This document shows positions 43,092-45,637 of a stretch of 64,000 bases of DNA, in pieces. The stretch's first letter is position 1. Every line of letters begins with the position of its first letter. The position numbers and the translations under genes were made by a program. Source of the DNA: Croceicoccus sp. Ery15 (GTDB lineage: Bacteria; Pseudomonadota; Alphaproteobacteria; Sphingomonadales; Sphingomonadaceae); assembly GCF_020985305.1 (NCBI RefSeq), contig NZ_CP087588.1:2530501-2594500 (forward strand), given 5' to 3'. The notes below the pieces were generated by a model, which was not told where the DNA came from, made no database searches, and worked only from the letters and a program-made list of their open reading frames with translations.

Positions 43092-43406
43092 GTGGAAGGC
43101 AACGGCAACGGCAACGGCAACGGCAACGGCAACGGCAACGGCGGTTCCGCGATTTCGGTGACAGTCAACTATCAAGCGGCGAGCAAGGTAGAAAGCTTCC
43201 CGCGCGGCGCTAAGGTCTCCGAGGTGCTCGCATGGGCAATCACGGCATTCTCAATCGACGACGCCATCGCGACCGAGATCGAACTCGTCGTCACGGGCAC
43301 GACCGAAGAGCTGCAGGGTTCGAAACCCTTGGCTTCCCTCGCCCCCGGCGGATCGACACTCACCCTCGACCTCGTGCGTGGCGACATTGCCAATGGGAGG
43401 CTCTGA
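43092..43406 (+). CDS. Ubiquitin-like protein (Ubl) of a bacterial conjugation operon
   Basis: The best start is a GTG at 43092 with AAGGGA 8 nt upstream, giving 104 residues. Residues 4-17 are seven Asn-Gly repeats, a flexible arm. The rest (AISVTVNYQAASKVESFPRGAKVSEVLAWAITAFSI...LEGSTLTLDL-like pattern ending SLAPGGSTLTLDLVRGD) has the strand-turn-strand-helix-strand rhythm of a beta-grasp fold, and the family is recognised mainly by the three partner genes downstream. The C-terminus is DIANGRL, not Gly-Gly, so conjugation may need trimming by the adjacent protease or use another chemistry. The E2-like gene follows after 2 nt. Confidence 0.72.
   Translation: MEGNGNGNGNGNGNGNGGSAISVTVNYQAASKVESFPRGAKVSEVLAWAITAFSIDDAIATEIELVVTGTTEELQGSKPLASLAPGGSTLTLDLVRGDIANGRL
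43101..43142 (+). repeat. Hexanucleotide microsatellite AACGGC x7 encoding (Asn-Gly)7
   Basis: Seven perfect copies of AACGGC lie at the 5' end of the Ubl gene. Because the unit is six bases, slippage would change the length of the Asn-Gly arm without breaking the frame. Confidence 0.97.
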
Positions 43407-43408
43407 GA

Positions 43409-43882
43409 GTGGAGGATCCCGCCATCGCACTTATTGAAGCTGACCTTGCTTCCGAGGAGTTTCGGACGGGCTGCGACGACGGACGCTGGCGGGTGATAGG
43501 TTTCGCTTATCCACGCCTCGACTTCAAGGTTTCAGCAATCGAACCCGACGGTACCGCGACTGAATATGGGTTTCGTGCCGATCTCACCAACTACCCAGGC
43601 CTCGCTCCAGAGGTGAAACTCTGGAATCTCGAAGAGGATCGCAAGCCTATCGCTGGCGAGCGACCGTCGGGTGGGAAGCGGGTCGCCGAGACTTTCAAGG
43701 ACTGGGGATCGGGTACCGTTTATCGGCCGTGGGATCGTCATACCGGGCCGCATAACAACAATGCTGTCGCCAAACCCCACCTAGCGTGGAGCAAGGACCG
43801 TGACTTGGCTTTCATCTTCGAGGATCTCTATGGCATATTGGTTAGCAACGGTCGCAAGGTCGCTACTCGGACAGCGGCCTGA
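43409..43882 (+). CDS. E2-like (UBC-fold) protein lacking a clear catalytic cysteine
   Basis: GTG at 43409, with GGGAGG upstream, gives 157 residues. After an N-terminal helix come strands and the segment LTNYPGLAPEVKLWNLEE, which resembles the YPxxPPxV signature of E2 enzymes. The downstream part (GSGTVYRPWDRHTGPHNNN...HLAWSKDRDLAFIFEDLYGIL) corresponds in order to the E2 active-site loop, but it holds no Cys. The only Cys of the protein is Cys22, before the fold. It may be a UEV-like adaptor rather than a conjugating enzyme, or a divergent fold. The JAMM gene overlaps its 3' end by 53 bp. Confidence 0.6.
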   Translation: MEDPAIALIEADLASEEFRTGCDDGRWRVIGFAYPRLDFKVSAIEPDGTATEYGFRADLTNYPGLAPEVKLWNLEEDRKPIAGERPSGGKRVAETFKDWGSGTVYRPWDRHTGPHNNNAVAKPHLAWSKDRDLAFIFEDLYGILVSNGRKVATRTAA

Positions 43883-44354
43883 GTTGATCTGTGATCGCAA
43901 AGTATGGGATGCTGGAGCTGCGGAGCTTTGCCGTCGCACAAACGGCGGTCGACGCGAGAGCGGTGCATTTCTTCTTGGCATCGCAGGCTCGCCCTCAACC
44001 ATTCGGCAGTTCATTTTCTACGACGATATCGATCCCGGTGCCCTCAACAGCGGTATTGTCCTGATCGATGGTCGGCGGCTTGGCGAGCTTTGGGAAATAT
44101 GCCGAAACGAAGGGATGAGCGTCGTTGCCGACGTTCATGTCCATCCGGGTAGCTTTCGGCAAAGTCCCTCCGACAAGGCGAACCCAATCATCGCGGAGGT
44201 CGACCATTTGGCACTGATCCTGCCGAATTTCGCTGAAGGTTCGAATCTTCCAGGCCACATCGGAGTACATCGCTACCTGGGCAACCGTCGATGGCGAGAC
44301 GAAAGCGACCGCCTTTTTCCTCCCTTTCACGTCGGAAAATATCTGTGGACCTGA
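43830..44354 (+). CDS. JAB/JAMM-family deubiquitinase-like metalloprotease
   Basis: ATG at 43830 with GAGGA upstream gives 174 residues. The zinc-protease elements are visible: a Glu in GRRESGAFLLGIAG near residue 53, and DVHVHPGSFRQSPSDKANP with the two His and the Asp of the JAMM site. The spacing is HxH then nine residues then Asp, one shorter than the common ten. The enzyme would cleave or mature the Ubl. The gene overlaps both neighbours, as expected for a coupled operon. Confidence 0.85.
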   Translation: MAYWLATVARSLLGQRPELICDRKVWDAGAAELCRRTNGGRRESGAFLLGIAGSPSTIRQFIFYDDIDPGALNSGIVLIDGRRLGELWEICRNEGMSVVADVHVHPGSFRQSPSDKANPIIAEVDHLALILPNFAEGSNLPGHIGVHRYLGNRRWRDESDRLFPPFHVGKYLWT

Positions 44355-45637
44355 CCCCCGAGCTATCCCGAATTGCAAAAATGCTGATTGATGCTGAAGG
44401 CATTAGTGGCGCGGATGCCGAAGCGCGTCTTCGCGCTATGACTCTGGAAGTCATAGTCGGTGAAAATGCTCACAGTATCGCTGGGCATAATGCGATCCTC
44501 ACCGCCGTAGCGGTCGGGAAGAAGACCTTTGTCGGCGGCGTCAGTGTCCGGATCGACGACGACGTACCGCTAGTTTCCGCGATGCCAGTCGGTTGCACAT
44601 CGCTGCGTGAGGCAGTCGATCGGCTGGGCGCTACCAAAAACGTTGGCGTCGCAGCAATCCGTATCATTATCGGAAATGTAATCGGAGGAGCATCAGACGT
44701 TCATGCTTGGTGGGATGGCTGGAAAGGCGGAGCAGCGTCGGGACCCAGAATCTCAGGAGACGCGGACAATCCTCTCGCCGGCATTGTAGCTGGCGCGGCG
44801 ACCGTGGCGTATGCTTTCGCACGGCTGCGAAATGCACATTCGCCTGGGTCTGTAGAGTTTGATCTTTGGCCGCAGAGAGCGGTGAGCAAGCCGCCGCCCT
44901 TCGCCAAGGTTTTTCTTCCCAGCGCGCTATGGCTGCTCGGCCTCGGCAATCTTGGTCAAGCATTCATGTGGTCGCTTTCGGCGCTTCCCTATCCCAATCC
45001 GCGAGCCGTAAAGCTGGTTTTGCAGGATGCTGACCAGATAAGCGCTGAAAATTGGGGAACTTCCGTGCTCGTACAGTCGGGAGAATACGGCGCCTACAAA
45101 ACCGCACTCGCGGAGCAATGGGCAAAGCGGAAGGGGTTCGATGTGCGCCGCGTTGATCGCCTATTAGCCCCACATCAACGGGTGCAGGAAAATGAGCCTA
45201 CGGTGGCGCTTTGCGGCTTCGATTCGATTACCGCTCGAAAACTCATCGACGGCTGCGGCTTCGAATTGGTAATCGACGCTGGTCTCGGTCGCGCCCATAC
45301 CGACTTCGATGTTTTCCGTGTGACGGTGTTCGATTCTGAGTATTCGGTTGCTGCACACTTTCCAGGAGACGTTCCACGATCGGCTCCTGCGCCACAGGAT
45401 TATGAGCAACTGCTCGGGTTAGACGGATGTGGAGCCGCCAAGTTTGAAGGCATTGGGATCGCAGCCCCCTTCGTAAGTGCGATTGCTGCGGCGACAACAG
45501 TGGCGCGCGCTATTGCGATTTGCAGCGGCGCAGCTGTTCCCCGAAATGAGAAACGGCGGCTGTTCGACGAAGGATCAAAGTTCGCTGCGCCAGCGACAGT
45601 GAATGCCCGGGGGATCATGCGCATAGGTTTTTCCTAG
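44345..45637 (+). CDS. ThiF/E1-like adenylating enzyme of the Ubl operon
   Basis: A GTG at 44345, overlapping the JAMM stop, gives 430 residues; an ATG at 44291 would add 18 basic residues that look like out-of-frame sequence. Residues 1-190 form an N-terminal region typical of larger bacterial E1-like proteins. The ThiF domain follows with WLLGLGNLGQ (nucleotide loop), LQDADQISAENWGTSVLV and GAYKTALAEQ. A Cys in LDGCGAAKFEGIGIAAPFVSAIAAA is a candidate catalytic residue. It would adenylate the Ubl C-terminus and may form a thioester. Confidence 0.83.
   Translation: MDLTPELSRIAKMLIDAEGISGADAEARLRAMTLEVIVGENAHSIAGHNAILTAVAVGKKTFVGGVSVRIDDDVPLVSAMPVGCTSLREAVDRLGATKNVGVAAIRIIIGNVIGGASDVHAWWDGWKGGAASGPRISGDADNPLAGIVAGAATVAYAFARLRNAHSPGSVEFDLWPQRAVSKPPPFAKVFLPSALWLLGLGNLGQAFMWSLSALPYPNPRAVKLVLQDADQISAENWGTSVLVQSGEYGAYKTALAEQWAKRKGFDVRRVDRLLAPHQRVQENEPTVALCGFDSITARKLIDGCGFELVIDAGLGRAHTDFDVFRVTVFDSEYSVAAHFPGDVPRSAPAPQDYEQLLGLDGCGAAKFEGIGIAAPFVSAIAAATTVARAIAICSGAAVPRNEKRRLFDEGSKFAAPATVNARGIMRIGFS

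Follow-up and report, generated by a model that had tools for sequence, protein, structure and literature searches.

Operon structure and family assignment

We analysed a 64,000 nucleotide stretch of the genome of Croceicoccus sp. Ery15 (contig NZ_CP087588.1, positions 2,530,501 to 2,594,500; hereafter the window), in which four tightly coupled plus-strand genes at window positions 43092-45637 encode a ubiquitin-like protein (Ubl), an E2-like protein, a JAMM metalloprotease and an E1-like enzyme, as an initial annotation made from the sequence alone had described. Their junctions are overlaps or a 2-nt gap, and we refer to the genes as bilA to bilD, following the A-to-D naming of BIL genes in a review (PMC11354881):

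43092..43406, + strand: bilA, GTG start, 104 aa, ubiquitin-like protein
43409..43882, + strand: bilB, GTG start, 157 aa, E2-fold protein, Pfam DUF7665
43830..44354, + strand: bilC, 174 aa, JAMM/JAB metalloprotease, 53 nt overlap with bilB
44345..45637, + strand: bilD, E1-like ThiF-fold adenylating enzyme, 430 aa from GTG 44345 (probable start), 10 nt overlap with bilC

The GTG at 44345 is probably the true bilD start in preference to 44291, since residue 19 counted from 44291, which is this GTG, aligns with methionine in 103 of the 107 rows that have a letter at that position.

All four products matched the PADLOC Bil models far beyond chance, with E-values of 2.2e-28 (BilA), 3.5e-44 (BilB), 3.9e-60 (BilC) and 7.2e-128 (BilD), and Pfam returned DUF7665 for BilB (3.9e-21) together with sub-threshold matches to Prok-JAB for BilC and ThiF for BilD. 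By homology the locus is almost certainly a member of the BIL (BilABCD) family. The gene order A-B-C-D, which the annotation had also given, is the usual one for BIL and no deviation. Structure prediction upheld both the beta-grasp fold expected of the first protein and the UBC-like fold expected of the second: the BilA model (predicted local distance difference test, pLDDT, 78) is one domain with ubiquitin and SUMO matches, and the BilB model (pLDDT 87) is UBC-like with a bacterial E2 (8tz0_C) as its best structural match. The same genes recur together elsewhere, with all four Bil components found in 26 of 28 comparison loci (L043 and L044 are without the full set), and the window BilD had no match in the phage collection searched.

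A single pairwise comparison with Sphingopyxis sp. H073 (L007), in which inter-gene overlaps were left unmasked, gave ratios of non-synonymous to synonymous substitution rates (dN/dS) of 0.121 for bilA, 0.102 for bilB (157 codons), 0.066 for bilC and 0.113 for bilD. In this comparison the ratios show purifying selection on all four genes.

An E2 fold with tryptophan at the cysteine site

The E2 cysteine site of BilB is occupied by Trp108 (window 43730-43732), within the motif YRPWDR..GPH. We aligned 119 BilB proteins, comprising the window protein and 118 matches of a word-limited search, which are hence kin of the query, and position 108 was tryptophan in every row. The surrounding residues Y105, R106, D109, R110 and H115 were invariant or nearly so. 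No cysteine was conserved across the alignment; the commonest, Cys22, occurred in 57 of the 115 rows having a letter there, and 25 of the 119 proteins contain no cysteine whatever. A relocated catalytic cysteine was considered for BilB and rejected on this alignment.

Trp108 pairs with the cysteine of Cys-bearing BilB proteins in a MAFFT alignment, where the frame is Y-x-P-C-D-R against Y-R-P-W-D-R here (one Cys-bearing protein has the variant frame Y-L-A-C-D-R), and a profile alignment of the Trp and Cys groups (E 2.6e-27) gives the same pairing. Among seven Cys rows the histidine is present in all, and the full C-x5-E-x-H spacing in three (L034, L035 and L038). C138, E144 and H146 are spaced in this way in the E2 of the rhizobial BIL system of pNGR234a (locus L057; PDB 8tyz/8tz0), which we take to be the system labelled type II. 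A review gives these residue numbers for the characterised E2 (PMC11354881). The PADLOC BilB model leans toward Cys-bearing proteins, as four such members scored 176-215 bits compared to 138-152 bits for nine non-Cys members. No E2 came up when the PDB was searched with sequences of Cys-bearing or mixed BilB, and Foldseek matches of the window BilB include the UEV proteins Vps23 and TSG101 (E 0.02-0.4).

Survey of bil loci

We surveyed 27 loci: the window, L006, L007, twelve genome loci (L031-L042) and twelve named-plasmid loci (L045-L056). The loci were picked by likeness to the window E1 or to the BilB model, and the shares given here are not population frequencies. L043 (an E1 fragment only) and L044 (a weak BilC only) were left out of the count, as were fragmentary or weak matches in G597 (twice), G721, G1140, G929 and G957. 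Matches to bil are rare, occurring in 4 of 148, 5 of 398, 8 of 385 and 10 of 396 genomes, with the Croceicoccus genome itself counted each time and weak or fragment matches included.

All 27 loci keep the E1 cysteine, the E1 Asp/Lys/Asp set, the JAMM Glu, HxH, Ser and Asp, and the terminal glycine of BilA, with or without a short tail. The BilB cysteine site is Cys in 12 loci (L034, L035, L037-L040, L042 and L046-L050), Trp in 10 and Tyr in two; Ile, Leu and Ala each occur once. Among the catalytic residues checked, the E2 cysteine is the only one repeatedly absent across these loci. The annotation had described several components as deviating from canonical enzymes, which holds for the E2-like protein above all, but not for the JAMM and E1 catalytic residues, which are intact.

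In both trees the Trp rows group together, with support of 97/91 for BilD and 100/99 for BilB; the window and L006 are near copies. The six residue states at the BilB site need five changes in each tree, the minimum possible, and the long-branch placement of L041, and of L055 in the BilD tree, is unsure. Outside the Trp clade, the site is Ile in L041, Leu in L051, Tyr in L054 and L056, and Ala in L055. Decay of bilB was rejected on its dN/dS of 0.102 over 157 codons relative to the Sphingopyxis gene, and the tryptophan in 119 of 119 rows, the single Trp clade in both trees and this low ratio together imply that bilB is not a decay product.

A UvrD or ATP-dependent helicase gene lies directly upstream of bilA in 6 of the 12 BIL plasmid loci (L046, L047, L049, L050, L051 and L052). 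Genes for helix-turn-helix (HTH) and ImmA/IrrE proteins lie upstream in 4 of 17 plasmid loci, an arrangement that resembles the CapH and CapP regulators mentioned in PMC13373217. One of these four, L060 (Rhizobium leguminosarum A1 pRL10, 3122-5643), carries a four-gene set with a small E2-like protein bearing C-x5-E-x-H; it has no PADLOC BilB or BilD match and is perhaps another type.

Features of BilA, BilC and BilD

BilA consists of a single beta-grasp domain (about residues 20-96) preceded by an N-terminal Gly/Asn linker, and its match covers only positions 79-162 of the 162 in the PADLOC profile. Proteins of two-domain length, as judged by length and alignment, occur in the clade of the window (L032, L033, L036, L045, L052 and L053, plus P0144 and P0146) and also in the Cys group, and the window-type BilA has therefore likely lost its first ubiquitin-like domain. 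The linker is encoded by a hexanucleotide tract whose copy number differs among close relatives (L006, P0123) with the frame intact:

43098..43142, + strand: GGCAAC tract, 7.5 copies, encoding the BilA Gly-Asn linker

The C terminus of BilA reads ...DLVRGDIANG-RL. Gly102 is present in 25 of 25 aligned rows, where ...RG(D/E)(I/L)ANG precedes a tail of two or three variable residues, a sequence pattern that fits trimming by BilC. As the tail beyond the glycine is missing in many loci of the wider survey, trimming cannot be the sole task of BilC. BilC itself carries the motif Glu43, His103-x-His105 and Ser112-x-x-Asp115 and matches the BilC of PDB 8tyx (E 7.6e-05).

BilD has a GLGNLGQ nucleotide loop, the Asp/Lys/Asp set and a catalytic cysteine, Cys380 (numbered from the ATG at 44291), which is found in 120 of 121 aligned rows. 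Its aligned counterpart in the NGR234 type II E1 is Cys417, described in a review as the reactive cysteine that forms an intermediate with BilA (PMC11354881).

Genomic setting and cargo slot

The window sits in a single 3.63 Mb contig, which we take to be the chromosome. The genes neighbouring the bil block encode ArdC, ParB and a Toprim/DUF7146 protein and look like an integrated mobile element. The initial annotation had placed the operon in a plasmid-type block between a RES/Xre toxin pair and a ParB gene: the pair and the ParB gene are where it put them and the mobile-element character stands, but the single large contig argues against a separate plasmid. The features around the operon are as follows:

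41716..45920, no strand: cargo block of RES, Xre and bilABCD, between the ArdC and ParB genes
41841..42533, - strand: RES-domain toxin of the same pair as Xre, Pfam RES 1.9e-09
42534..42926, - strand: Xre/MbcA/ParS-type antitoxin, Pfam Xre_MbcA_ParS_C 1.7e-12, divergent from bil
42953-42982, toward bilA: promoter-like site, TTGACG, 18 nt, CATATT
42971..42983, no strand: palindrome CAATATCATATTG (unchanged in L006 and L007), overlapping the promoter-like site listed above

We would guess that the palindrome is a candidate operator of the divergent Xre protein. Homologues of RES and Xre adjoin bil in L006, L007, L033 and L037 and lie about 4 kb away in L038 (5 of the 28 loci examined), whilst in L032 an Xre match alone is near bil.

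With Sphingopyxis H073, a 3.9 kb stretch running from RES to slightly beyond bilD aligns at 80.7%; with Novosphingobium aquimarinum, 12 kb align at 96.7%. In a comparison of 14 Croceicoccus genomes, the Ery15 genome included, the ArdC and ParB flanks are common to several at 87-92% and lower in others; outside its own genome, positions 41716-45920 were uncovered among the matches listed, and a BilD protein search found nothing in the other 13. In one relative (G009) the slot is empty, with the flanks 33 bases apart on one contig and no N between them, and this is the sole clean empty slot seen. A second candidate (G002), with 43 bases between the flank matches, was not counted as the gap contains ten N.

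Six relatives carry other cargo in the slot, of which 10 of the 44 listed open-reading frames were scanned. In G008 (L069, 411-3872) we found a TRIP13-type CBASS ATPase (443 bits) and a WYL regulator, so that one and the same slot can hold either bil or CBASS-type cargo. Among the other relatives, whose scanned cargo had no PADLOC match, two carry parts of RND efflux systems; the rest have an oxidoreductase, an FTR1 permease alongside an ABC1 kinase, or a RimK-like protein. The ArdC/ParB slot is not purely a defence site: the annotation's mobile defence cargo is borne out as far as the mobile cargo setting goes, but the efflux, metal-related and metabolic genes of relatives speak against a slot reserved for defence, with the CBASS-type genes of G008 standing beside them. 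In the same region as the element, window positions 1-38000 hold two RND pumps, a P-type ATPase, a multicopper oxidase and an FTR1 permease.

Proposed mechanism and alternatives

The analysis shows the gene set, the predicted folds, the conserved residues, the selection and the cargo setting; going beyond these, we propose that the locus is an antiphage system of a variant BIL lineage, in which BilB forms no thioester at the Trp site and BilA passes from the E1 to its target with BilB as a non-catalytic partner; we give this reading a probability of roughly 0.55. With tryptophan at the cysteine site, BilB should be unable to take a thioester there, thus it would be a non-catalytic partner and the E1 probably transfers BilA directly. 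In the cycle envisaged, the JAMM protease BilC would trim BilA back to Gly102 by removing its two final residues, and the E1 BilD would adenylate the BilA glycine with ATP and carry BilA as a thioester on Cys380, as its conserved residues suggest. BilB would then bind BilD and present a target lysine, acting as a scaffold or target reader in the manner of the non-catalytic eukaryotic UEV proteins, whilst BilA passes straight to the target. The targets are probably phage structural proteins, as secondary papers report for the Collimonas system, and BilC may also remove the tags. The divergent Xre/RES pair, which has its promoter region in common with bil, may act as a repressor of the operon and lend the cassette stability.

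Several points weigh against this interpretation. The BilB model is less certain in the loop around Trp108, with block means of 77 and 65, and profile alignment of BilB with the type II E2 stays in the N-terminal part (weakly so for the Cys-bearing group) and leaves Trp108 unmapped, so that active-site homology with type II is indicated by motif spacing. Searches of the Ery15 genome with PF14455, PF14461 and PF14457 gave no match, with the controls equally silent, and an E2 could act in trans. BilB could also act through a different residue, or conjugation could play no part in the system.

The first of these last two options would make BilB a catalytic, cysteine-independent E2, passing BilA via another nucleophile (e.g. 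Tyr105, Asp109 or His115) or a member-specific cysteine. The near-invariance of Y105, R106, D109, R110 and H115 around the site and the presence of Cys22 in 57 of 115 rows would suit such an enzyme, yet we consider it unlikely: Tyr105, Asp109, Arg110 and His115 are kept in Cys-bearing members too and are therefore not a new nucleophile, and the 25 of 119 proteins lacking any cysteine argue against a member-specific one. The second would be a BIL-derived system that has ceased to tag proteins, with BilD, BilA and BilC serving adenylate signalling, sulfur transfer or non-covalent sequestration of BilA and BilB as a structural subunit. It would account for the missing E2 cysteine in several branches, and E1-like and ubiquitin-like proteins are akin to sulfur-carrier proteins (PMC1779556); we nevertheless give it little credence, as 27 of 27 loci retain the JAMM residues and the terminal glycine of BilA, in keeping with a cycle of maturation and deconjugation, and the Pfam matches of 30 surrounding open-reading frames scanned in the window include no sulfur-metabolism family.

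Alternatively, the tryptophan could be mechanistically neutral and the BIL system an ordinary one, since the E1 would do the transfer even in Cys-bearing members and the E2 cysteine would be dispensable, as suggested by the 15 of 27 loci that have W, Y, I, L or A there. Set against this, the cysteine is kept in 12 of 27 loci across long distances and Cys138 of the type II E2 is reported, in a review, to be directly involved in catalysis (PMC11354881), and we regard a neutral tryptophan as quite improbable. Assignment of the operon to Bub or to another Iyer-type group (6a-6e), which would likewise comprise Ubl, E2-like, JAB and E1-like proteins, is very improbable given the separate genes in A-B-C-D order and the PADLOC BilD match (7.2e-128). 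In type 6e the JAB domain is mostly fused to the E1-like protein, with exceptions allowed (PMC1779556), whereas JAMM and E1 are separate genes here. Bub had also been set aside as the best label on the PADLOC BilD and BilA scores, a comparison made against Bil models alone.

Returning to direct transfer with a non-catalytic BilB, a wider form of the proposal is that a large BIL lineage tags without an E2 thioester, with the E1 cysteine as the sole catalytic cysteine and the fixed-Trp E2 fold as a substrate receptor, the E2 cysteine having been lost or replaced several times. We hold this generalisation tentatively, as somewhat short of an even chance; if true, non-catalytic E2 folds would be common in bacterial conjugation. 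Eukaryotic ubiquitin-like transfer nearly always runs from the E1 to the cysteine of an E2. An antiphage family that keeps the E1 cysteine, protease and modifier but is repeatedly without the E2 cysteine would demonstrate that a pathway of two steps can make use of the E2 fold, with consequences for views of what E2 proteins did originally. The locus offers a compact, testable four-gene system in which the choice between mechanisms comes down to two residues, Trp108 and Cys380. The notion of an inactive E2-like protein in operons of this kind is not new, as Iyer et al. (2006) described bacterial operons (type 6e) whose E2-like domain has no cysteine (PMC1779556). For the Cys-less, Trp-fixed BilB clade within BIL we found no description in the portions of literature searched, which had the primary BIL papers outside their scope.

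Comparison with known systems

The closest eukaryotic parallel to the window BilB is in the UEV proteins TSG101 and Vps23, which likewise have an E2 fold without a catalytic cysteine, a likeness seen in predicted structure. Mms2 is also a UEV protein, and Mms2-type UEVs act beside a Cys-bearing E2, a partner that the window operon does not encode.

Among bacterial systems, the type II BIL of rhizobia shares the order Ubl, E2, JAMM, E1 and also has a short BilA (98 aa). Its E2, however, has C138/E144/H146/H151, and in its E1 the insert preceding the cysteine is longer than in the window BilD. Its JAMM (4.2e-18) and E1 (1e-15) give weaker Bil matches in PADLOC, and its Ubl and E2 give none.

The Collimonas sp. 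OK412 BIL system, which is reported to tag the phage central tail fibre (Hor et al. 2024, as cited in PMC11364771 and PMC12948488), would have a homologous set of genes to the extent that the PADLOC models represent it. The canonical cascade differs from the window operon in having a catalytic cysteine in BilB instead of Trp108, and an ISG15-like BilA with two ubiquitin-like domains (as described in PMC11354881) instead of a one-domain protein of 104 aa. The Cys-bearing DUF7665 BIL operons share with the window four homologous genes, the E1 cysteine, the JAMM motif and the terminal glycine of BilA, but have a BilB cysteine where the window has tryptophan, and their own BilA is long enough for two ubiquitin-like domains.

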